Shown: positions 2,679-17,575 of the stretch, in pieces
How positions within the stretch are numbered: the stretch's first letter is position 1
Layout: every line of letters starts with the position of its first letter
Assembly (NCBI GenBank): GCA_030595185.1
Contig: JAUVDT010000013.1
Location: forward strand, 1 to 33,040
Reading direction: 5' to 3'
Length of the DNA: 33,040 nt
Source: Gammaproteobacteria bacterium
Lineage (GTDB): Bacteria > Pseudomonadota > Gammaproteobacteria > SZUA-229
Translations under genes and position numbers: made by a program
The notes under the pieces: model-generated
Told to the model about the DNA's origin: nothing
Databases searched by the model: none
What the model saw: only the letters and a program-made list of their open reading frames with translations

Positions 2679-2707
2679 AAAAAACGGTTGAAAATGAACC
2701 GTTTTTT
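2679..2707. terminator. Bidirectional intrinsic terminator between fliK and cheY
   Basis: A perfect 11-bp inverted repeat, AAAAAACGGTT / AACCGTTTTTT, encloses a 7-base loop (2690-2696). A run of T on the right and a run of A on the left make it a U-tailed terminator for both strands. It separates the flagellar unit ending in fliK from the chemotaxis operon, so cheY probably starts from its own promoter or from partial read-through. Confidence 0.85.
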
Positions 2708-2727
2708 TATAAGTTTTTTGTATAAAA

Positions 2728-2746
2728 CTGGTGGTCTTTTCACCAG
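2728..2746 (+). promoter_or_regulatory. Small leader hairpin before cheY
   Basis: CTGGTG (2728-2733) and CACCAG (2741-2746) form a perfect 6-bp stem with a 7-base loop, ending about 10 bases before the Shine-Dalgarno of cheY (GGGG, 2757-2760). There is no T-run after it, so it is not a terminator. A role in mRNA stability or translation is possible but not shown. Confidence 0.4.
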
Positions 2747-2768
2747 AGAAATGAATGGGGTTTTAAAT

Positions 2769-3131
2769 ATGGCTTTGATTTTAACGGTTGATGATTCTGC
2801 ATCAATGCGACAAATGGTTGCGTTCACCTTAAAAGGTGCAGGTTATGACGTAGTAGAAGCTGAAGATGGACAAAAGGCTCTTGCTGCCTCAAAAACCAAA
2901 AAGTTTGATCTTGTTATTACGGACGTCAATATGCCGGTAATGGATGGAATTACTTTTATCCGTCATTTAAGAGCGGAAGCAAACTATAAGTTCACACCAA
3001 TTTTAATGTTAACAACAGAGTCTTCTGCGGATAAAAAGAGCGAAGGTAAATCAGCTGGTGCAACTGGATGGATTGTTAAACCTTTTAACCCTGACCAACT
3101 GTTAGCAGTTGTCAAAAAAGTTATTGGTTAA
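2769..3131 (+). CDS. cheY: Chemotaxis response regulator CheY
   Basis: This 120-residue single-domain receiver carries the full phosphorylation site: acidic pair D8-D9, phospho-acceptor Asp52 in LVITDVNMP, the switch Thr in LMLTTESS and the Lys in IVKPF. It is phosphorylated by CheA and acts on the flagellar switch or as a phosphate sink. The frame is open further upstream, with another ATG at 2751. ATG 2769 was chosen because the protein then begins at the canonical receiver start (MALILTVDD) and GGGG sits 8 bases upstream. It is the first gene of the chemotaxis operon and lies just upstream of cheA, as in F7/Che2-type clusters. Confidence 0.95.
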   Translation: MALILTVDDSASMRQMVAFTLKGAGYDVVEAEDGQKALAASKTKKFDLVITDVNMPVMDGITFIRHLRAEANYKFTPILMLTTESSADKKSEGKSAGATGWIVKPFNPDQLLAVVKKVIG

Positions 3132-3177: not shown

Positions 3178-5178
3178 ATGTCAATTGATATGGAACAGTT
3201 TCATCAGGTATTTTTCGAAGAAAGCTTCGAAGGGCTTGATATTATGGAAACTGGATTACTGAATCTGGACAATGGTGAGGCTGATGATGAGGAAATTAAT
3301 ACCATTTTTCGTGCAGCTCATTCTATTAAAGGAGGAAGTGGTACTTTTGGTTTCCAGTCTATTGCAGATTTCACACACATTATGGAAACCTTGCTTGATG
3401 AGGTTCGAGACGGAATACGTGAACTAACCCATGATGGTATCAATGTTTTACTAAAATCTGTCGATTGCCTGCGAATGATGATGACTGCCGAAAGTGATGG
3501 TGGTGATATTGATGATAGTGAAGTAAAAACTAATTTTGACGCATTACAGAACATATTAGGCTCAAGTGATAGTCCATCAGATAACTCAACCGCAGAAGTA
3601 GCCGACACTACCAGTGATGTTCCATCAGCCTGGAAAATAAGCTTTTCTCCGCATAAAAATTTCATGCAGTTCGGTAATGATCCCGCAAGAATCATTAAAG
3701 AATTGGCAACTATGGGCCAGCTAACTGGTCATGTTGATACCAAAAATGTACCGGATTTTGTAGACCTCAATCCTGAAAATATGTTTCTTTCATGGGATAT
3801 GGAGTTAAAAGGTAATGTCACAAAAGAACAGATTGATGATGTTTTTTCCTGGGTAGAAGATGAAAGTGATATCAGCATAACGGCATTATCTAAGAACAAA
3901 GAAAAAACTCAGAATACAGCTAAAAAATCACAAGATACTAAGATAAAGGCAGCTGCCTCTCAAGCACCTGTGAAATCTGCTGCTGCCGATAAAAAAGAAA
4001 AATCAGCACCTGCAAACAGCTCAATTAGGGTAGGAATAAACAAAATAGATGACCTGATAAATATGGTTGGCGAGCTGGTAATTACTCAGTCCATGCTCAG
4101 TATGCTGGGTGAAGATTTTAATATGACACGGCTTGAGAAACTTCAAGAAGGCTTGATTCAGCTTGACCGTCATACTCGTGAATTACAAGAAAGTGTCATG
4201 CAAATTCGCATGGTACCTATCAGCTTTACCTTTAGTCGTTTCCCAAGAATGGTTCGTGATTTGAGTGAAAAACTTGATAAGAAAATCCAACTGGTTATGC
4301 ACGGTGAAAATACTGAACTGGATAAAACAGTTATTGAAAAAATTGGTGATCCATTAGTCCACCTGGTGCGGAATAGTATCGATCATGGCATTGAAATGCC
4401 AGAAGATCGAATCGCAGCTGGTAAGCCAGAAACAGGCACAATACAACTTAACGCATTCCATCGCGGTGGCAATATTGTGATTGAAATTACCGATGATGGT
4501 AAAGGTATTGATAAAGATGTTATTTACAACAAAGGTGTAGAAAAAGGCCTGGTCGAAGCGGGTTCCAAATTATCTGATCAGCAAATTTACGATTTATTGT
4601 TTAATCCCGGTTTTTCTACTGCAACTGAAATCACGGATGTATCTGGCCGTGGTGTTGGTATGGATGTTGTTAAGAAAAATATCATGAGCCTTGGCGGTGC
4701 AATTGAAACACATTCTGTTAAAGGCCAGGGTAGTATTTTTAGTATTCGATTACCGTTAACGCTTGCCATACTTGATGGGCAGTCAGTCACTGTTGGTGCA
4801 GATAATTATATTATTCCCTTGGTTTCAATTGTTGAATCTGTACAGCCTAAAAAAGAGCAGCTAAATATGGTTGCTGGTAAAGGCGAAACATATAAGTTAC
4901 GTGATGAGTACTTACCGATTCTTCGGATCTGTGATTTATTTAATATTCCTGATGCAAAAGCAGACAAACTGGAAGACGGTTTGCTGGTAGTAGTGGAAGC
5001 CGATGGTAAACATTTTGGCGTGTTTGTTGATGATTTATTGGGTCAGCAGCAAGTGGTTATTAAATCGCTGGAATCAAACTATAAACGTATTGAAGGTATA
5101 TCAGGTGCAACTATTTTAGGTGACGGCTCGGTAGCGTTAATTCTGGATGTGCCTGGTTTAATAAGAATGTCTGATTAA
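3178..5178 (+). CDS. cheA: Chemotaxis histidine kinase CheA
   Basis: CheA is the soluble array kinase that autophosphorylates in response to receptors and passes phosphate to CheY and CheB. Domain order in the 666 residues: Hpt/P1 with His48 in FRAAHSIKGGSGTFGF; a middle region (about 145-235) at the position of the P2 regulator-binding domain; a K/A-rich linker (about 240-280); P3 dimerisation starting SSIRVGINKIDDLINMVGEL; P4 ATPase with N box LVHLVRNSIDHGIE, G1 DDGKGID and G2 GRGVGMDVVKKNI; and P5 CheW-like to the end. All catalytic motifs are intact. A GAGAGACGGAG Shine-Dalgarno region precedes the ATG. cheW follows after 16 bases, so translation is likely coupled. Confidence 0.97.
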   Translation: MSIDMEQFHQVFFEESFEGLDIMETGLLNLDNGEADDEEINTIFRAAHSIKGGSGTFGFQSIADFTHIMETLLDEVRDGIRELTHDGINVLLKSVDCLRMMMTAESDGGDIDDSEVKTNFDALQNILGSSDSPSDNSTAEVADTTSDVPSAWKISFSPHKNFMQFGNDPARIIKELATMGQLTGHVDTKNVPDFVDLNPENMFLSWDMELKGNVTKEQIDDVFSWVEDESDISITALSKNKEKTQNTAKKSQDTKIKAAASQAPVKSAAADKKEKSAPANSSIRVGINKIDDLINMVGELVITQSMLSMLGEDFNMTRLEKLQEGLIQLDRHTRELQESVMQIRMVPISFTFSRFPRMVRDLSEKLDKKIQLVMHGENTELDKTVIEKIGDPLVHLVRNSIDHGIEMPEDRIAAGKPETGTIQLNAFHRGGNIVIEITDDGKGIDKDVIYNKGVEKGLVEAGSKLSDQQIYDLLFNPGFSTATEITDVSGRGVGMDVVKKNIMSLGGAIETHSVKGQGSIFSIRLPLTLAILDGQSVTVGADNYIIPLVSIVESVQPKKEQLNMVAGKGETYKLRDEYLPILRICDLFNIPDAKADKLEDGLLVVVEADGKHFGVFVDDLLGQQQVVIKSLESNYKRIEGISGATILGDGSVALILDVPGLIRMSD

Positions 5179-5802: not shown

Positions 5803-8800
5803 ATGAGAATTAATGAGCCGGTGACGCATAACGAAGTAGTAATGAAGGAGAGTCAATTCCTTGTTACTAAAACAGATCTGAAAGGCATTATGACTTTCGT
5901 TAACCGTGATTTTATCGATATTAGTGGCTTCAGCCGTGATGAATTAATCGGGAAAAATCATAATGTTGTGCGACATCCTGATATGCCGCCTGCTGCTTTC
6001 GAAGACTTATGGAATACCGTAAAGAATGAAAAGCCCTGGGTAGGAATGGTTAAAAACCGTTGTAAAAATGGTGATTTTTATTGGGTGCAGGCAAATGTCA
6101 CTCCAATTATGGAAGGCGGTCGTCTCTCTGGTTATATGTCGGTACGAAACAAACCCAGCAGAGACAAAGTTGCAGTTGCTGAAAAACTATATGGCGAAAT
6201 GAATGCCGGCAAGATGCCTAAAGCAAGTTTATTTAGTCGCTTAAATATATTTAGTAAAATGAAAATATGGCAGAAACTGGCTTTTGTTGGTTTCATCTTC
6301 TTTGCATTAATTGCAGCATTATCTGTTGAAGTTTACCTGATTACTGATGAAGATATTGTTTTTGCAAATGAGGAAAGAGTCGGTGTCGAATATGTGGTTG
6401 GCATTCGAAAAGTGATGCAAAACATGCCGCAACATAGAGGAATGAGTGCCGCATATTTAAGTGGTAATAAGTCGGTTAAGTCTAAAATACTATCTAAGCG
6501 AAAAGATATTGATGCAGATTTTGCAGCACTAAAATCAATCGATGATCGTTTGGGTGCTGAACTAAAAACAACGGCTGATTTAACTAAAATAATTGATCAA
6601 TGGAATCAATTAAAACAGGAAACTTTACAGTTATCAGGAAAAGAAAGTTTCTCTCGACACACTGCATTATTAGAAGAAGTTATCGCTTTAAATGTAGAAG
6701 TTGGTAATAACTCTAATCTGATACTTGACCCTGAAATTGATAGTTTTTATGCGATGGATTTAATCATAAATCGTGTTTTGCAATTAACTGAAAAAATGGG
6801 TCAAGTTCGAGGTCTGGGTGCTAGTATCATCGCAAAAGGTACCATGTCGGATCAGCAAAAAGAGCGCTTAATTAGGTTAAGTGTTCTAAATGGTGGTTTA
6901 GTTGAAGGTATCGAACTGGCACTTGATTCAGCCTATAAAGCAAACCCTATGATAAAACCTAAGCTTGAATCTTATGCAAGCTCAGTCAATAAAGCATTGA
7001 ATGGGTTTAATAAAAAAGTGGACCTGGTTATATCGGGTAAATTTGCTGGGCTGGATTCTACAGACTTTTTTAGTGATGGTACGGATGCAATAGGTAGTTC
7101 ATTTGCCTTATATGATGCCACTGCACCGGTATTAGACGAGTTGCTTCAAATAAGAATTGATAATTTAACATCGACAGAAGTAACTATTCTAATTTTAATT
7201 CTGATAGGTATAGCAATTGCAATATCTGTTGGATTTGCGATTGCTCGCGATATTTTGACTATATTAAGTGAAACTAATGAAGAGTTTGGTTTCCTCGCAG
7301 AAAATAACTTTAAACGTGATATTGATATTTTACGTTACGATGAGTTTGGAGATCTGCTACGTTCAATGAAAAATATGCAGATTAAACTTGGCTTTAATGT
7401 TAATGATACCAAGGCAACTGCTGATGAAATGATGCAGATTAAGGTGGCTCTCGATAACGTTTCCAGTAGCGTTATGATGGCTGATAACGATAACGTTATT
7501 ATGTATATGAATAGCGCCGTTACAAAATTAATGAAAGAATCTGAGTCTGCTATTAAACACGACTTACAAGACTTTGATGCAGATTCGCTGATAGGAACTT
7601 GTATTGATGTGTTCCATAAAAATGCGGCACATCAACAGCAGCTATTAAAAAATCTGACATCACCTTACACAGCACAAATTGAGGTTGGTGGCCTTATCTT
7701 TAGATTAACGGCTAACCCTGTTGTCAATGATCAGGGTCTACGTTTAGGTACAGCAGTTGAATGGGTCGATAGAACAAATGAAGTGGCTGTTGAAAAAGAA
7801 GTAGAAAATATTGTTCAGGCTGCTAAAGCAGGAGATCTGGATCAGCGACTTGAAATTGCAGGTAAAGAGGGTTTCTTCTTGCAGTTGAGCGAAGGCATCA
7901 ATGAAATGATTGGCACTATTTCAAATAGTTTCAATGATGTGGCTCGTGTTATGCGTGCAATGTCTGATGGTGACCTAACTCAAAAAATCACTGATGATTA
8001 CGAAGGAACTTATGCTGATGTACAGAATGACATTAATGCGACTATTGATAAGTTTGAAGATGTAGTTGGTCAAATTGTAGAGTCGAGTGAATTCTTCAAG
8101 AGCACTAGTGAGGAGATAGCTTCTGGTAATAACAACTTGTCACAGCGAGCTGAAGAACAGGCTTCTACACTTGAAGAAACTGCATCAAGCATGGAAGAGT
8201 TAACCGGTACGGTTAAAAATAATGCCGATAATGCTCAACAAGCTAATCAGTTAGCAGCCAGTGCACGAGGTACGGCTGAAAAAGGTGGTGAAGTAGTTAA
8301 GGAAGCTGTGATCGCCATGGAAGAAATCAATTCTTCCAGTACTAAGATTGCAGAAATCATTGGTGTCATTGATGAGATTGCTTTCCAGACAAACTTGCTT
8401 GCGCTGAATGCTTCGGTTGAAGCGGCAAGAGCTGGCGAACAAGGTCGTGGTTTCGCGGTTGTTGCAACTGAAGTCAGAAATCTGGCCGGTCGAAGTGCTA
8501 CTGCAGCAAAAGAAATTAAAGACCTGATTACTGACAGTGCTGAAAAAGTTGAGAATGGTTCAAAACTTGTTAATGAATCAGGCGAAACCTTAAGTGAAAT
8601 TGTTGCAGGCGTTAAGAAGGTTGGTGACATTATTTCTGAAATTGCAGCGGCTAGTTCTGAACAGTCTGCCGGTATTGATCAGATCAATAAAGCAGTCTCA
8701 CAAATGGATGAGATGACACAGCAAAATGCTGCATTAGCTGAAGAAGCTTCTGCTGCCAGTGAATCATCAGTCTCTAAAGCTGTAGACATGGTTAAGTTAG

Positions 8801-8970
8801 TTGAATTCTTTTCAACAAATACAACCTCTGCAAAAGCAAGCCGTGATGATGAACCAGTAGCTGCTGAAAAAAGGCCGGCTGCAAGTTCTAAACCACAACA
8901 ACGCAGAGCAAAAAATAAACCTGCACCCAGAACCGTCGTAGACGATGATGATGAATGGGAAGACTTTTAA
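5803..8970 (+). CDS. Aer-like PAS methyl-accepting chemotaxis receptor with C-terminal tether
   Basis: This is a 1055-residue chemoreceptor. Residues about 10-115 form an Aer-type PAS domain ([51 protein letters not shown]), which in Aer binds FAD and senses redox state. TM1 is about 153-175. A periplasmic region of about 280 residues follows, with [14 protein letters not shown] resembling nitrate/NIT-like sensors. TM2 is about 459-482, then HAMP, a second PAS-like segment (about 536-660), another HAMP, and the signalling domain with the tip [21 protein letters not shown]. After a K/R/A/P-rich linker the protein ends in EWEDF, a WxxF pentapeptide of the type bound by CheR/CheB. A GGACGGAGAA ribosome site precedes the ATG. 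The ligand is unknown. Confidence 0.93.
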
Positions 8971-9568: not shown

Positions 9569-10327
9569 ATGACTGCAAGGGTGATATCAGTCATCAATCA
9601 AAAAGGTGGCGTTGGCAAAACAGCAACGGCTACAAATTTGGCTCATGGTCTGGCTTTGAAAGGCTATCAAGTCCTGGCAATTGATCTTGATCCACAAGCA
9701 CATCTGGCTTCTAGCCTTGGTATTACTCGTGAAGATATTGCGGGACTAGATGCCGTTTTTTTGAAAGGTATTCCATTACAAAGTGTTCAGATGCAAGTTC
9801 GTGAAAATTTGAAACTTGTCTCTGCTGGTGGACATTTAAATGAAGTGGAAAATCTGGAAGGTGGTAAATCCCGCGGGCTCTTATTAAAAAGAGCGCTGGA
9901 TCAATATAATGATGATGTTGATTTCATAATTATTGATTGTCCTCCATCATCTGGTCTATTGGTAATCAATGCATTGTTTGCAACTGAAGAAGTGCTAATT
10001 CCAATGACAGGTGATTATCTTGCTATGCAAGGTTTGTCACACTTAATGGCTACACTGTCAAATTTTGAAGAGGCTTTACAAAAATCATATCAACAGTGGA
10101 TTGTTTTGAGTCGTTTTCACGACAGGCGACGTCTGGCTCAGGAAGTTAAAGAAAAACTCATTAATTATTTTCCTGATACAGTATTAAAGACATCTATATC
10201 TGAAGCGGCCTCTTTAGCAGAGTGTCCAGGTTTTGGTAAGACTGTCTATGAATACAGGCCTAATAGTAAATCAACAGAAGAGTATACATCTCTAGTTAAG
10301 GATTTGATCTCCGGGAGGGTTTTTTGA
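9569..10327 (+). CDS. ParA/MinD-family ATPase, probable positioner of the chemotaxis array
   Basis: This 252-residue protein is a deviant-Walker-A ATPase of the ParA/Soj type. It has KGGVGKT with signature Lys12 and P-loop Lys17, the A' motif IDLDPQAHLASSLG, and Walker B DFIIIDCPPSSGLL. No N-terminal DNA-binding extension is present, so it is a short (type Ib-like) ParA. It lies inside a chemotaxis operon with no parB or centromere-like repeats nearby. ParC of Vibrio and PpfA of Rhodobacter are chemotaxis-linked ParA proteins that localise arrays, so array positioning is the likely role. Its stop overlaps the next start by one base (TGATG), tying it translationally to the lysine-tailed STAS protein, a candidate partner. 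Confidence 0.85.
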   Translation: MTARVISVINQKGGVGKTATATNLAHGLALKGYQVLAIDLDPQAHLASSLGITREDIAGLDAVFLKGIPLQSVQMQVRENLKLVSAGGHLNEVENLEGGKSRGLLLKRALDQYNDDVDFIIIDCPPSSGLLVINALFATEEVLIPMTGDYLAMQGLSHLMATLSNFEEALQKSYQQWIVLSRFHDRRRLAQEVKEKLINYFPDTVLKTSISEAASLAECPGFGKTVYEYRPNSKSTEEYTSLVKDLISGRVF

Positions 10328-11154
10328 TGGCTAAAAAAAGTACAACAAAGACCACAAAAAAGAAGACCGCAGCAGCGGTTAAAAAAGTACCAGCTAAGAA
10401 AAAAACTGCAACTAAGAAAAAAGCGAAAGCTAAAAAAAGTCCGTTTAAATCCAAGTTGGGTCATGACCCGTTGGCATGGATTACTGGAGATGATGCAACT
10501 GAACTAGGTCTTAGTTTTGATGATATTGAATCAAGCTCAAGTTCTAGTGCACTTGATGAAATTATTCCTGCCGTGCAGGTTGCCGAAGATAGCATTGAAG
10601 TTAATGAGGTCGCTGCTGAGCCTGTTAGTGTAATTGAGCAGAATGTGGCAAGTGAAACTGTTGCTGATACTGCTCCGCCAGTTTCTGATGACGGTTCATG
10701 GGGTTTGTTTGGTAGTAAAGAAGAAACTCCCGTTACAGCGCAATCAGAGACCTCTGATGATGGATCCTGGGGTTTATTCGGGTCAGAAGAAGCTGAAGCT
10801 AGCGATTCATCTACTGATGAAGGTATTGCGTGGGGCTTATTTGAAGATGAGTTAGCTACAGATACAGATATCGATCATGATGCTTTAACAATACATTTAC
10901 CAGCCAGTTTTAATGTTTCAGTAATTTCAAAGGTCTATCATGAGTTTGAAGAAATCATCAGTAAAAATCATGATGTAATTGTTGATGCAAGTGATATAGA
11001 AACTATTGATGCTGTGGGCTTGCAGCTTTTATTTGCAGGTAGAAAAGAATTGCAAAAGAACGGCTGCAAGATGGTAATAAAAGATGGATCTAAACGTGTT
11101 GATTTATTATCAAAGTCTTCATTCATAAATGAACTGATTGGTATTTCAGGATAA
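10327..11154 (+). CDS. STAS-domain protein with lysine-rich N-tail and three WGLF repeats
   Basis: This 275-residue protein is not a textbook Che component. Residues 2-40 are a Lys/Ala/Thr tail like histone H1 or AlgP (STTKTTKKKTAAAVKK and similar). Residues about 48-120 are acidic and disordered. Three repeats then follow at residues 124-128 (SWGLF), 147-151 (SWGLF) and 168-172 (AWGLF), each preceded by an acidic stretch. Residues about 185-275 form a STAS (MlaB-like) domain, TIHLPASFNV...VIVDASDIETIDAVGLQLL. The position equal to the phosphorylated Ser of SpoIIAA is Ala229. GGGAGGG (10313-10319) lies 7 bases before ATG 10327, which decides that start over the TTG just upstream. It is encoded between parA and cheR; function is not established. 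Confidence 0.85.
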   Translation: MAKKSTTKTTKKKTAAAVKKVPAKKKTATKKKAKAKKSPFKSKLGHDPLAWITGDDATELGLSFDDIESSSSSSALDEIIPAVQVAEDSIEVNEVAAEPVSVIEQNVASETVADTAPPVSDDGSWGLFGSKEETPVTAQSETSDDGSWGLFGSEEAEASDSSTDEGIAWGLFEDELATDTDIDHDALTIHLPASFNVSVISKVYHEFEEIISKNHDVIVDASDIETIDAVGLQLLFAGRKELQKNGCKMVIKDGSKRVDLLSKSSFINELIGISG

Positions 11155-11157
11155 ATT

Positions 11158-12003
11158 ATGGCCGTTACTATTAAACCAGACAGGGAATTCTTATTTACTG
11201 AAAAAGATTTTAATTACCTGAGAAAAGTGGCCAATGACTATTCAGGTATTACCGTTTCAGATGATAAATATGACATGTATTATGCTCGCATTGCTAAAAG
11301 AGTAAGAACTCTAGGTGTGGGTGATTTTGCAGGATATTGTAAGTACCTGAAAAACAACCACGCTAAAGAATTTACTAATTTTATTAATTCTATAACAACT
11401 AATTTAACATCGTTTTTTAGAGAAAATTATCATTTTGAATTTATGGTAAGTGATCTAATTCCTGAGTTCAAAAAAAAATATGCTACTAAAAAGTCATTAA
11501 AAATTTGGTGTACTGCAGCCTCTACTGGTGAAGAGCCTTACTCAATTGCAATGACTTTAGCTGAAAATTTTGACTTAAAAGCATGGGATATTAGATTTTT
11601 AGCTACTGATATAGATTCTAATGTACTGACTACTGCACGTAATGGTGTTTATGAAGAGCAACGAATAGCGAATTTAAGTAAAACGCGAAAATCAAAATGG
11701 TTTAGAAAAGGCTCAGGTGAAAATAAAGGTACTGTCAGGGTCGACAAAAAGTTAAGAGAAATGGTTTCATTCAAAAGGTTAAATCTCATTCAGGAGTGGC
11801 CGCTAAAAAATAAGTTTGACCTTATAATTTGTCGTAACGTATTTATTTATTTTGATGGGCCAACAAAAGAAATGATCCTTGAAAGATATCATGATTTATT
11901 AAATGACGGAGGTTATTTAATACTTGGGCATTCTGAATCTATTCATTCAATGAATACAGACTATGAAACAATAGGTCATACAATATATAGGAAAACTATT
12001 TAA
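11158..12003 (+). CDS. cheR: Chemoreceptor methyltransferase CheR
   Basis: CheR transfers methyl groups from S-adenosylmethionine to receptor glutamates. The 281 residues comprise an N-terminal helical domain and a C-terminal SAM domain with IWCTAASTGEEPYSIAM (about 115-131), FLATDIDSNVL, and FDLIICRNVFIYFD followed by LILGHSESI. The beta-subdomain loop reads FRKGSGENKGTVRV, which aligns without gaps to the glycine-containing loop of enteric CheR (FMRGTGPHEGLVRV). That loop is a feature of pentapeptide-binding CheRs. This agrees with the EWEDF tail of the receptor in the same operon and with the three WxxF repeats just upstream. It starts 3 bases after the STAS gene. Confidence 0.96.
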   Translation: MAVTIKPDREFLFTEKDFNYLRKVANDYSGITVSDDKYDMYYARIAKRVRTLGVGDFAGYCKYLKNNHAKEFTNFINSITTNLTSFFRENYHFEFMVSDLIPEFKKKYATKKSLKIWCTAASTGEEPYSIAMTLAENFDLKAWDIRFLATDIDSNVLTTARNGVYEEQRIANLSKTRKSKWFRKGSGENKGTVRVDKKLREMVSFKRLNLIQEWPLKNKFDLIICRNVFIYFDGPTKEMILERYHDLLNDGGYLILGHSESIHSMNTDYETIGHTIYRKTI

Positions 12004-12004
12004 T

Positions 12005-12634
12005 ATGGCTCTGAGTAGTGATAAACATCGAATTCATAAAGCATTACCTGATTTTTCTAGTATTAAACGCTATTGGGATAAAACTAATAACTGTGTGGCT
12101 GCAAAAATATTACCAGGCGAATATTATGTGTCTGTTACTAATGAGTTAATTACTACGGTGTTGGGTTCGTGTATTTCGGTTTGTATTCGTGATGCTAAGA
12201 ATGGCATCGGTGGTATGAATCACTTTATGTTACCCAAAGATAATAATGTAAGTGATAGTATTGTTAGTGAGGCTGCCCGTTATGGGAACTTTGCAATGGA
12301 ACATTTGATTAATGATATTTTACATTATGGTGGCGAGCGTAAAAACCTGGAATTCAAAGTGTTTGGTGGTGGTAAGGTTCTTGATATGAAGATGGATATT
12401 GGTAAAAAAAATATTGAATTTGTATTTGAATATCTTAAATTGGAAAGGTTTTCCATACTTTCTGAAGATGTAGGAGATGTATATCCAAGAAAAGTGAATT
12501 TTTTTCCATTATCTGGTGTCGCTAAAGTTAAAAAACTGAAAAAACTACATAATCAAACTATTATTACTAGAGAAAATACGTATCTTGAAAATATTAAAAA
12601 TGCACCTGTTGAAAGTGATATTGAGTTATTTTAA
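12005..12634 (+). CDS. cheD: Chemoreceptor glutamine deamidase CheD
   Basis: CheD deamidates specific receptor glutamines and, in some species, is held by CheC-type proteins. This protein has 209 residues, somewhat long for the family because of an N-terminal extension and a C-terminal tail. The catalytic Cys56 lies in ELITTVLGSCISVCIRD, and His73 lies in GIGGMNHFMLP. Both match the Cys-His pair of CheD, and the FGGG block (VFGGGKVLDM) follows. It starts one base after the cheR stop and ends 17 bases before cheB. No cheC is present in the window, so any CheD partner must be encoded elsewhere or be different. Confidence 0.95.
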   Translation: MALSSDKHRIHKALPDFSSIKRYWDKTNNCVAAKILPGEYYVSVTNELITTVLGSCISVCIRDAKNGIGGMNHFMLPKDNNVSDSIVSEAARYGNFAMEHLINDILHYGGERKNLEFKVFGGGKVLDMKMDIGKKNIEFVFEYLKLERFSILSEDVGDVYPRKVNFFPLSGVAKVKKLKKLHNQTIITRENTYLENIKNAPVESDIELF

Positions 12635-12651
12635 ATGAGAGCTAAAGCTAC

Positions 12652-13743
12652 ATGTCAAAAATAAAAGTCTTAATTGTTGATGATGCGGCTTTGATGCGTA
12701 AATTGCTGACAGAGATATTGTCATCAAGTTCCAGGATTGAAGTAGTGGGTACAGCAGCCGATCCATTTATAGCCCGAGATAAAATCAAACAACTCAATCC
12801 AGACGTGATTACACTTGATGTTGAAATGCCTCGTATGGATGGCATTACTTTTTTAAAAAATTTGATGCGTTTACGACCTATGCCAGTAGTCATGATTTCT
12901 ACGCTTACTGAAGATGGTGCTGATATAACTCTTGAAGCACTTGCAAGTGGCGCAATTGATTATATACCTAAACCAAAAGCAGACTTTGAACATTCTATTA
13001 GCGACTACGCAAATGATATTATAGAAAAAGTTATCACTGCTGGACAGGTTAATATCAGCAAGATTGAAAAAAGAATCAAGACTTTAGGTAAAATGAAAGT
13101 GTCACCAAAACTTTCAGCAGATGCAGTTTTATCAAGTAGATCAGGTAAGAATGTTGTCAATACAACGGATAAATTTATAGCAATTGGTGCTTCAACAGGC
13201 GGAACAGAGGCTGTAAAAGAAGTACTTATGGGTTTGCCCTCTGATGTGCCAGGTATCGTGATTGCACAACATATACCAGCTACTTTTAGTACTAGTTTTG
13301 CGCGTAGACTGAATGAAACCACAAACCTGAGGGTGCGCGAAGCAAAAAATGGCGATCAGATACTTCCAGGGCATGTATATCTTGCGCCTGGTGACAAACA
13401 TCTGATCATACAGAGAACAGGTGCAAAATATATCTGTAAACTGAATGATGGCCCTGAAGTAAATAGACATAAACCCAGTGTTGATGTTTTATTTCGCTCT
13501 GTTGCACAAAGTGCTGGACCGAATGCGATGGGTATCATGTTAACAGGTATGGGTGCAGACGGTGCGCAGGGTATGTTAGAAATGAAACAAGCGGGTGCAT
13601 ATAATATTGCACAAGATGAAAATACTTCTGTTGTATGGGGTATGCCAGGTGCTGCTGTTAAGCTTGGAGCAGTGGATAAAGAGTTTCCGTTAGATTCCGT
13701 TGCTAATGAAATAAGTAAATATATGGTGAAATCTAGCGTGTAG
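12652..13743 (+). CDS. cheB: Chemotaxis methylesterase/deamidase CheB
   Basis: CheB removes receptor methyl esters (and can deamidate) once phosphorylated by CheA. In the 363 residues, the N-terminal receiver has D10-D11, phospho-acceptor Asp56 in VITLDVEMPRMDG, and the Lys of DYIPKPKADF. After a linker (about 130-170) comes the esterase domain with a complete triad: Ser181 in AIGASTGGTEAV, His207 in IAQHIPATF and Asp303 in GMGADGAQGM. The protein is fully functional by these criteria. It follows cheD by 17 bases. Length and architecture are normal. Confidence 0.97.
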   Translation: MSKIKVLIVDDAALMRKLLTEILSSSSRIEVVGTAADPFIARDKIKQLNPDVITLDVEMPRMDGITFLKNLMRLRPMPVVMISTLTEDGADITLEALASGAIDYIPKPKADFEHSISDYANDIIEKVITAGQVNISKIEKRIKTLGKMKVSPKLSADAVLSSRSGKNVVNTTDKFIAIGASTGGTEAVKEVLMGLPSDVPGIVIAQHIPATFSTSFARRLNETTNLRVREAKNGDQILPGHVYLAPGDKHLIIQRTGAKYICKLNDGPEVNRHKPSVDVLFRSVAQSAGPNAMGIMLTGMGADGAQGMLEMKQAGAYNIAQDENTSVVWGMPGAAVKLGAVDKEFPLDSVANEISKYMVKSSV

Positions 13744-13764
13744 AATTTAAAGGGAATTTTGTAT

Positions 13765-14976
13765 TTGTTACTAGAATTTAAAAAATATTGGATAGCCTTA
13801 TCAGTAAGTTTAATTGTATTGCTGTATGGCCTTCTAGCGACAAAATTTAATTACAATATCTTTTTAATTGTTATTATAATTTTAAGCTGGATGATTAATG
13901 TTTATATTGTATATAAATTTAATCTTAAAGAGTCGTCAGGATTATCTGCGCCGAAAAATAGTACTGAGAGTAACACTGAAAAGTTGTCTGAAAAAATATC
14001 TGAATTATCAGACTTAACTAAAGGTGAAATGAGTGCGCTTAAGGAGAGTATTGAGCAGGTCAATAATCTGGTGCTAGATGCTGTTTCAGGACTTGGCATT
14101 AGTTTTACAACATTAAGCAACGAGACTCGCTCACAAGAGCAGTTAATCATGAGTCTTATCACTAATATGGCTGGTTCAGGTGATGACTCTGGTACTATTA
14201 CTATTAAACAATTTGCAAATGAAACTAATGAAATTTTAAACTATTTCGTTAAAAACATCATTGATGTTAGCAAAGAAAGTATGGTCATGGTTCATACTAT
14301 TGATGACATGGTTATCAATATGAACGAAATCGATAAATTGCTAGCTGATACTAAAATAATAGCGGATCAAACTAATTTACTGGCTTTGAATGCAGCAATT
14401 GAAGCCGCTAGAGCAGGTGAGGCTGGACGAGGATTTGCCGTAGTAGCGTCAGAGGTTAGAGATTTATCAGTAAGATCAAATCAATTTAATGAAAGAATCA
14501 AAGCTGCTGTTCATCGTGCAGTAGATGACATGGGTAAAGCACAATCTATAATTTCTGATATAGCCTCGAAAGATATGAGTGTCGCGATTAAATCGAAGGA
14601 TCGCGTGGATGAAATGCTGGATAGCTTAAATGATATGAATTTATTTATTGCTAATAAATTAGGTGAAGTTAGCAGTATTACGGAAAGTATAGAAACAGGA
14701 GTTAATGGAGCGGTACAGTCACTTCAGTTTGAAGACATTATTCGGCAATTGTGCGAATATATTGCAAATCATCTTGATCAGATTGGTCATAGCTATGATT
14801 TAATGCATTCAAAGCTTACTGATTTAGACCTTAAAGATGATGACCCTGAAAAAATAATGGAAGTATTGTCATTAGTAAATAATATGCTATATGACGATTT
14901 AGAAGATATTAAACATAATAAAAGACAAACAGTACAGCAAGGTAGTATGGACGAAGGTGCTATCGAGTTATTCTAA
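13765..14976 (+). CDS. Small membrane MCP-like protein with CheZ-like DxxxQ motif
   Basis: This protein of about 403 residues has two membrane helices at its N-terminus ([18 protein letters not shown] and [19 protein letters not shown]), almost no periplasmic loop and no HAMP domain. It has an MCP-type signalling hairpin, [21 protein letters not shown] followed by [18 protein letters not shown]. Near the C-terminus is [14 protein letters not shown], with Asp324 and Gln328 spaced as in the CheZ active site (DFQDLTGQ). It lacks sensor domains and a WxxF tail, so it may be an accessory or phosphatase-like array protein rather than a receptor. The start is not ATG: TTG 13765 lies 9 bases after AAGGGA, while TTG 13759 in the same frame is only 3 bases away. 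Confidence 0.8.
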
Positions 14977-14989
14977 TGTGGAGAAATAG

Positions 14990-15295
14990 ATGTCAATAAG
15001 TATACAAAAATCGGATGATGGTAAAGAAATTACGATTAAGATCGATGGTCGATTTGATTTTGGCTCGCATCATGATTTTCGTGATGCATATCGAGGTGCA
15101 ACTGAGTCAGGTACTATCTTTTCACTAGATATGTCAGATACTGACTATATGGATAGTTCTGCTTTAGGAATGATTTTATTACTTAAAGAGTACTCAAGTA
15201 CTTTAAGTGGTGATATTAAAATCATAAATGTAAATTCAGAAATTAAAAATATTCTGAAAATAGCAAATTTTGATAAGCTTTTTAGTGTTTCGTAA
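14990..15295 (+). CDS. Single-domain STAS protein (anti-sigma-factor-antagonist type)
   Basis: This 101-residue protein is a lone STAS domain of SpoIIAA/RsbV type. Residues 14-25 form the first strand (ITIKIDGRFDFG). DTDYMDSSALGMILLL carries the phosphorylatable position Ser56, aligning with Ser58 of SpoIIAA. The partner would normally be an anti-sigma-like Ser/Thr kinase, but none is encoded in the window. It follows the MCP-like gene by 13 bases with TGGAGAA as ribosome site. It is the last gene of the operon and converges on mltF 22 bases later. It differs from the STAS domain at 10327-11154, which has Ala at the same place. Confidence 0.88.
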   Translation: MSISIQKSDDGKEITIKIDGRFDFGSHHDFRDAYRGATESGTIFSLDMSDTDYMDSSALGMILLLKEYSSTLSGDIKIINVNSEIKNILKIANFDKLFSVS

Positions 15296-16775: not shown

Positions 16776-17235
16776 TTCTAAATCTAACTTCGCCTATTTT
16801 ATCAGTGTGAGCAGGTTAAATGTTATGGTTGTGTAAAAAAGATTAAAACTGTCAAATAACTCGACGATTAATAGTTGGTTTTGTTTCTAACCATATGATT
16901 CTTATATGAAATTTATAGCCTTATAAGTGTGTTATTAATAATTAAGTATTAATGGTTAGTCTTTAATAAGATAACTATGTGGTTAATATTGTCGAGATAC
17001 AATGAAATTCAATTAAATTGCTCTTAAAGCGGCATGTTTATATGTTAGAATCGCGCACCAATTTGGTTTTATTCTATAAAATCAATGAGTTATTAGTATT
17101 AAAAATATTTGAGTGGCGGCTCAGTATTTTTACATAATCTGGAGAAGTGGTCGTTTAAGGGCATCAGTGCTTAGTACGACACTTGTACATCCATGTACAT
17201 CGTCCAAGGACATGTATAAAAAAGTACAAATATCA
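16776..17235. other. Intergenic region between mltF and tRNA-Ser
   Basis: No convincing gene. It contains the upstream region of mltF (reading leftward) and a candidate promoter for the tRNA (17024-17051), followed by a transcribed leader of about 170 bases. Within that leader are TGTACATCCATGTACA (17184-17199), a 7-bp inverted repeat around CC, and GGAGAAGTGG at 17141, which copies the first bases of the tRNA. Confidence 0.6.
17024..17051 (+). promoter_or_regulatory. Candidate promoter for tRNA-Ser
   Basis: TTAAAG (17024-17029) and TAGAAT (17046-17051) are separated by 16 bases and followed by CGCGC, a GC-rich discriminator typical of stable-RNA promoters. The predicted start is about 175 bases before the mature tRNA, which is long, so a nearer promoter is possible. 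Confidence 0.35.
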
Positions 17236-17325
17236 GGAGAAGTGTCCGAGTGGCCGAAGGAGCACGCCTGGAAAGTGTGTATACGTTTATTCGTATCGAG
17301 GGTTCGAATCCCTCCTTCTCCGCCA
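17236..17325 (+). tRNA. tRNA-Ser, anticodon GGA
   Basis: The 90-base cloverleaf has acceptor stem GGAGAAG / CTTCTCC, discriminator G and an encoded CCA. The anticodon stem CACGC / GTGTG holds loop CTGGAAA, giving anticodon GGA (serine, UCC/UCU). A long variable arm (TATACGTTTATTCGTATC region), as required for class II tRNA-Ser, and a TTCGAAT T-loop are present. Confidence 0.97.
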
Positions 17326-17326
17326 T

Positions 17327-17375
17327 ATAAACAAAAAAGCCCTACCTGTTTTTCAGGTAGGGCTTTTTTGTTTAT
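17327..17375 (+). terminator. Intrinsic terminator after tRNA-Ser
   Basis: A perfect 22-bp stem (17327-17348 with 17354-17375; core GCCCTACCTG / CAGGTAGGGC) surrounds a TTTTT loop, with the T-run forming part of the distal arm. It starts two bases after the tRNA CCA. The symmetry means it can also stop transcription arriving from the right. Confidence 0.93.
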
Positions 17376-17575
17376 GGGGGTAAGGGCGGACGAGAACCCT
17401 TTAAAGATAATGTGTGTGCTACCACAGTTATTTGCGTGTCCCCTCGGCATCTGCTCCTGCTTTGCTCTACTACCTACGTCCATGTAGGCATACACAGGCA
17501 AGTACGATTCGAAAAAATTACAGGACAGCAAATTTTGATGCAGTGACTTTTTACTGCGCCCGAAGAGAGGTATTT

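Follow-up and report, generated by a model that had tools for sequence, protein, structure and literature searches.

A receptor-like protein of an F7-type chemotaxis cluster carries a conserved CheZ-like motif and is a candidate membrane-tethered CheY phosphatase

The window that we analyzed, a 33,040-nucleotide stretch of a Gammaproteobacteria genome, encodes an MCP-like protein with an Asp and a Gln placed as in the phosphatase CheZ. We refer to this protein and its relatives that carry the CheZ-like motif as MZ. Judged from sequence comparisons, it is likely that the protein is a membrane-tethered, CheZ-like phosphatase for CheY (or another REC protein) built on an MCP hairpin, and it would probably serve as an off-switch, not as a sensor. 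A sequence-only reading of the window had proposed such a tethered CheY phosphatase. The proposal gains partial support from the register of the D/Q pair, the profile match to CheZ, the CheZ-like C-terminus, and relatives that keep motif and tail after losing the receptor tip or the hairpin, and it is weakened by a canonical cheZ on another contig of the genome. The features discussed here are collected in Table 1.

Table 1. Features of the MZ protein and its chemotaxis cluster in the window.
Feature	Position	Strand	Basis or remark
MZ, MCP-like protein with CheZ-like motif; McpA-like receptor of F7-type cluster	13759..14973	+	405 aa, TTG start; Pfam; gene order as described in PMC7184735 section 10
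Membrane anchor, two hydrophobic segments, about residues 9-30 and 32-56	13783..13926	+	Kyte-Doolittle 19-residue windows >1.6
Canonical receptor tip, residues 204-236	14368..14466	+	PF00015 match; near-invariant in alignment A3
CheZ-like motif QFEDIIRQ, residues 323-330; D326 = tip+118, Q330 = tip+122	14725..14748	+	in-register hhalign match to CheZ
Conserved C-terminal peptide, putative CheY/REC docking peptide	14944..14973	+	F405 invariant in 86/86; tail census
cheY of the cluster, putative substrate	2688..3131	+	PF00072
cheA, F7 type	3178..5178	+	similarity
Aer2-like receptor, CheR-tether-type C-terminus DDDEWEDF	5803..8970	+	NF041847 574 bits, below its cut-off of 1200
cheR, cheD, cheB, directly upstream of MZ	11158..13743	+	names by similarity and order
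STAS protein, directly downstream of MZ	14990..15295	+	PF01740 45.7 bits

The architecture of the protein is as the sequence-only reading had described it: two membrane helices (by Kyte-Doolittle analysis, hydrophobic segments separated by a short loop alone), no sensor domain and no HAMP. MCPsignal (PF00015; 93.4 bits against a cut-off of 34.6, residues 176-320) is its sole Pfam match above cut-off, and the protein thus lacks the sensor domain and HAMP of an ordinary transmembrane chemoreceptor. The receptor tip is intact. We also confirmed the motif with its CheZ-like Asp/Gln spacing, which falls within nucleotides 14719-14766 (residues 321-336), the codons of D326 and Q330 starting at 14734 and 14746. 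The protein ends in AIELF, a conserved C-terminus without the pattern -x-[HFYW]-x(2)-[HFYW].

A D...Q pair alone is uninformative, as it occurs 4119 times in 9107 non-family ORFs. In the same ORFs F[QE]D...Q occurs six times and [LM]QF[QE]D...Q not once in 1.70 million amino acids, and when the MZ protein itself is shuffled, F[QE]D...Q arises in 70 of 20000 shuffles. The evidence beyond chance therefore comes from conservation and a fixed register among relatives. The Asp lies exactly 118 residues after the receptor tip in 25 of 25 relatives selected by motif. We then divided a census of 198 distinct MCP-tip ORFs according to whether or not they close with the C-terminal pattern [IVL]x[LFI]F, here called the tail; its counts are of related proteins, not of independent events. 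D and Q stand at tip+118 and tip+122 in 88 of the 90 tail-bearing frames. Among the 108 frames without the tail they do so in six, namely four that belong to the family but have a variant or shortened tail (L020, L077, L078, L083) and two ordinary MCPs (L024, L227), which have the pair by chance and make up 2/104 of the ordinary MCPs. Many census loci were fetched with a profile that holds the motif and not the tail, which leaves the link between tail and motif informative, yet affected by selection. At the motif position ordinary MCPs carry sequences such as EEAAAASESMDEQ. Given the family census and the motif counts in non-family ORFs, we rejected chance as an account of the motif. The expectation that D and Q are conserved in homologues was borne out, the register being kept in 88/90 tail-bearing frames against 2/104 ordinary MCPs.

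The two remaining tail-bearing frames (L185:8470-9774 and L186:7462-8730) are MZ-like and form a separate subfamily, in which the motif (QYQD/QFQDVVRQ) is off by one residue relative to the tip, an Arg follows the Gln, and the tails read IQFF and LELF.

Conservation outside the tip region is narrow. Across 86 full-length members no column there is invariant except Q323, D326, Q330 and F405; D and Q were the selection criterion for this set, and Q323 and F405 were not. In profile A1, built from relatives picked by the regular expression Q[FY][EQ]D...Q, the invariant Q, D and Q are so by construction. The tail lies outside A1, with which the loci for the class-wide genome counts were found, and a short acidic-hydrophobic C-terminus ending in Phe nevertheless accompanies the motif.

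In CheZ, D143 contacts CheY, Q147 orients the attacking water in CheY-P, and a C-terminal peptide holds CheY. Aligned by hhalign, the C-terminal segment of MZ (92 sequences, one of which, L024, is an ordinary MCP that has D/Q by chance) matched 32 CheZ sequences with a probability of 87.8, an E value of 3.3e-6 and a score of 39.4, in a register that sets LQFEDxxxQ of MZ on DFQDLTGQ of CheZ. The controls gave 15.6 for the best of 60 column permutations, 19.3 for the reversed profile and 0.39% for ordinary MCP C-termini. Removal of the 11 motif columns lowered the score to 15.0, which is background. The match thus resides in the motif helix alone, and convergence may account for it. In a database of 9298 ORFs enriched in both the MZ and CheZ groups, a 70-residue MZ profile (HMMER, E<=0.01) found only MZ, standalone short forms, variants and 15 of 34 CheZ, and a CheZ profile at E<=1 found ten non-CheZ matches, all of the MZ family.

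The likeness to CheZ thus consists of an Asp and a Gln four residues apart, one helical turn, following a conserved Phe and lying on the polar helix face at angles nearly those of CheZ (helical phase), and of a linker followed by a short acidic C-terminal peptide whose last residue is Phe, common to both families. MZ differs in having an MCP hairpin and a membrane anchor, another hairpin length, and LQFED where CheZ has QDFQD. We do not class the window's protein as CheZ, because PF04344 has no match in it, a search of PDB sequences with profile A4 returned unrelated matches and no CheZ chain at E<=10, the signal is confined to the motif helix, and a single-sequence AF2 model is poor (pLDDT 50). 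PF04344 at E<=0.1 matches only 4 of 86 MZ members, with unrelated coiled-coil families matching more, and none of ten scanned proteins lies above its cut-off. CheC, CheX and FliY, the CheY-P phosphatases of organisms without CheZ, have a fold unrelated to CheZ and the motif ExxN; the window's genome, a 69%-complete assembly, has no match to them.

The strongest argument, at the level of sequence, comes from relatives in which the CheA/CheW-binding tip is lost and the motif and tail are retained, which suggests that selection acts on motif and tail. Several relatives without the tip or the whole hairpin occupy the McpA-like position of che clusters. Profile A1 recovered ten standalone proteins, in frames of 168-234 aa, with [LFI]QF.D...Q and no receptor tip; nine end in ..LF, and the frame of the tenth (L183) continues past an aligned IDLF. 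For seven of the ten, che core genes lie no more than 11 kb away; six of these seven are in clusters with an Aer2-like receptor, where they stand between that receptor and cheR or after cheB. Nine scanned standalone forms had no Pfam or NCBIfam family above cut-off. In a phylum sample the module was present in 86 of 299 genomes, and we inspected 29 loci, 26 of them from outside the window's class. All 26 retain [LM]QFEDxxxQ and a tail ending [IV][ED]LF; a degenerate tip, LNA[RN]IV, replaces LNAAIE in 22, and the other four (L252, L261, L273, L275) have no recognisable tip. The four tip-less forms follow cheB, and 21 of the 22 degenerate-tip forms lie between cheW and STAS-REC genes. A scan for close relatives found one distant MCP in genome contigs and none in viral contigs, and plasmid searches with the standalone short forms as queries gave no match.

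LNA[RN]IV in these loci (L247-L275) is an observation in its own right: a conserved and apparently inactive receptor tip in soluble proteins encoded between cheW and STAS-REC.

The cluster in the window runs fliI-fliJ-fliK, cheY, cheA, cheW, Aer2-like receptor, second cheW, ParA-like ATPase, long STAS, cheR, cheD, cheB, MZ, short STAS, where the fliI/J/K and che names are in part presumptive. A cluster with cheY and without cheZ had been noted from the sequence. This is true of the cluster and not of the genome, in which a full fliA-cheY-cheZ (locus L001; PF04344 E 5e-74) lies on another contig; we therefore rejected the absence of cheZ from the genome. Two further MZ are encoded in the same genome, on contigs C16 and C14. 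The one at C16:9233-10381 (L034) represents a third subfamily, with LQYEDAVTQ, the tail GEIDLF, and a STAS and then a REC protein downstream.

Among 88 distinct MZ, with neighbours labelled by phmmer from window proteins as queries and not from curated annotation, STAS is directly downstream in 40 and cheB directly upstream in 36. A second cluster type, with 18 of the 88, places MZ directly before cheY-cheA, with motifs such as LQFQDRVSQ and the tail ITFF. It is represented by named proteins of Pseudomonas sp. HR96 (WP_320579541.1) and Aeromonas sp. BC14 (WP_268015531.1). Each is annotated as methyl-accepting chemotaxis protein, and in each cluster a STAS gene separates cheY from cheA. MZ clusters such as L303 and L304 are ordered MZ-cheY-(STAS)-cheA-mcp-cheW-cheR-cheD-cheB, which we take to resemble the F9 order; the F9 assignment is by gene order. 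At L114:7572-8795, one of two such cases (the other is L122), MZ directly follows cheY-cheZ-cheA-cheB and so stands beside a canonical cheZ.

The gene order and content of the window's cluster match the stage-1 F7 cluster as set out in the relevant sections of Ortega et al. 2020 (PMC7184735), which call the gene at the MZ position an 'mcpA-like chemoreceptor'; like that gene, MZ adjoins the F7 cheR-cheD-cheB and STAS. The McpA-like receptors of F7 systems named in passages of PMC7184735 and PMC9855816 include PA0180 (CttP/McpA), VCA1088 and SO_2117, and both sources there treat the protein as a receptor of unclear role. By these descriptions they share with MZ a gene after cheB, an adjoining STAS, a TM region, no CheR pentapeptide and a conserved C-terminus, which PMC7184735 describes in the same context as important and of unclear role. 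They differ in that the passages concerned are silent on both a DxxxQ motif and phosphatase activity in them; neither 'CheZ' nor 'phosphatase' occurs in the text of PMC9855816, and in the open-licence PMC literature we found no paper tying McpA-like receptors to a CheZ-type motif or phosphatase activity. A homologue in the same cluster position in Vibrio sp. THAF191d has LQFTDIIVQ and EEGEVELF. The review PMC7534058 gives VCA1088 as without experimental reports, and describes VC1394 of the F9 cluster as a receptor of the same topology as the McpA-like ones, with no assigned pathway.

In a class sample of 274 genomes the module occurs in 79, CheZ in 115 and both in 69. Since 69 of the 79 module-bearing genomes have cheZ, the module accompanies cheZ within the class; the enrichment predicted where cheZ is missing fails here, and we rejected the module as a marker of cheZ-less genomes in the class. 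Outside the class, PF04344 CheZ is missing from 56 of 59 module-bearing genomes, 44 of which have a CheX/CheC match. With 'F7-type' defined as similarity to the window's cheA at about 597 bits or more, the module is present in 54 of 63 genomes with an F7-type cheA, in 21 of 68 with another cheA and in 4 of 143 without a cheA match. Of 58 F7-type cheA loci, 29 are truncated where the contig or locus stops. MZ or a short form lies nearby in 23 of the 58, neither in 34, and only cheZ in one; that no more than 23 have one counts against the phosphatase reading. Three F7 genomes without CheZ (G092, G222, G155) encode FliG and lack any match to CheC or CheX, and MZ, or its short form in G155, is the only recognisable candidate CheY phosphatase in them. 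Three others (G106, in one contig, G157 and G269) have the module and no FliG, CheZ, CheC or CheX match. A weak PF04344 match in G106, a 202-aa frame at C1:446867, was set aside: it has no CheZ-like motif and lies opposite another frame, presumably that of a PAS/AAA+ transcription regulator. G244 was left off the cheZ-less list on account of a CheZ C-terminus at a contig edge.

If MZ is a phosphatase, D326 would contact CheY and Q330 would position the attacking water in CheY-P, by the chemistry of D143 and Q147 in CheZ. The C-terminal peptide would dock CheY, as the CheZ C-terminus and the FliM N-terminus do. The MCP hairpin and membrane anchor may serve to hold the activity within receptor arrays or close to them. 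The most likely substrate would be the CheY encoded in the same F7 cluster. The CheY of the F6 array, where McpA-like proteins reportedly reside, may be another, and where a cluster includes STAS and a REC protein, that REC protein may be the substrate.

It is tempting to extend this proposal, tentatively and at somewhat less than even confidence, to McpA-like (F7) and VC1394-like (F9) receptors at large, which would be array-resident CheY phosphatases, not sensors. They would make up a second, widespread CheZ-like lineage that also comprises soluble dead-tip or tip-less forms and hairpin-less forms of about 200 aa. Receptors and CheY phosphatases would then be helical hairpins that evolution can convert into one another. 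Were this so, the McpA-like receptors would gain a function, and the F7 (and apparently F9) clusters, which bear cheY without cheZ, a means of signal termination. The receptor scaffold would bear the off-switch of its own pathway, and annotations as 'methyl-accepting chemotaxis protein' would hide likely phosphatases.

The reading closest to current annotation, that MZ is an ordinary or specialised chemoreceptor whose conserved helix has a structural role or one in adaptation and is CheZ-like by convergence, draws on the intact tip in the window's protein and on two reports. A role as trichloroethylene receptor has been reported for CttP/McpA, as cited in a passage of PMC7534058, and the S. 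oneidensis McpA (SO_2117) is located in CheA3 (F6) arrays and, when overproduced, raises swimming as other MCPs do, according to the parts of PMC9855816 that concern it. Its deletion was without effect there, as would be expected if CheZ is also present, and these portions of the SO_2117 data do not contradict a phosphatase reading. We regard a plain receptor as distinctly improbable: the protein has no sensor domain or HAMP by Pfam, the motif is missing from ordinary MCPs apart from the two chance cases, and motif and tail are kept in forms without a functional-looking tip.

A non-catalytic adaptor is also unlikely, if a shade less so. Here the C-terminal peptide and the motif helix would bind CheY, or the REC of an adjacent STAS/REC module, and either keep it sequestered or recruit it to the array. 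The conserved peptide is in keeping with such a role, as are the STAS and REC genes that often adjoin (STAS directly after 40/88 distinct MZ), but the exact D...Q pair of CheZ would be superfluous in a protein that only binds, and that pair is kept where tip and hairpin are lost. Docking of the adaptation enzymes CheB, CheR or CheD by the tail and motif helix, suggested by cheB directly upstream of 36/88 MZ and by a C-terminus that resembles the CheR pentapeptide in length and final Phe, seems very improbable. The second position of the tail is Ile or Val, not aromatic; the P. aeruginosa McpA tail interacts with none of four CheR homologues, as stated in section 11 of PMC7184735; and in the other cluster type (18/88) MZ stands directly before cheY-cheA. 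A CheZ-like phosphatase remains our preferred reading.

Other genes of the window deserve brief mention. A ParA/MinD-like ATPase (9569-10327, + strand) sits between cheW and STAS, and parA-labelled matches recur in many related clusters. The long STAS protein (10324-11154, + strand) has three WGLF copies, DDGSWGLFGS twice and GIAWGLFED once, in a low-complexity N-terminal region before its STAS domain; it is possible that these repeats are a repeated docking motif. At 17113-17531, overlapping frames on both strands look like the spurious ORFs that commonly surround tRNA genes.
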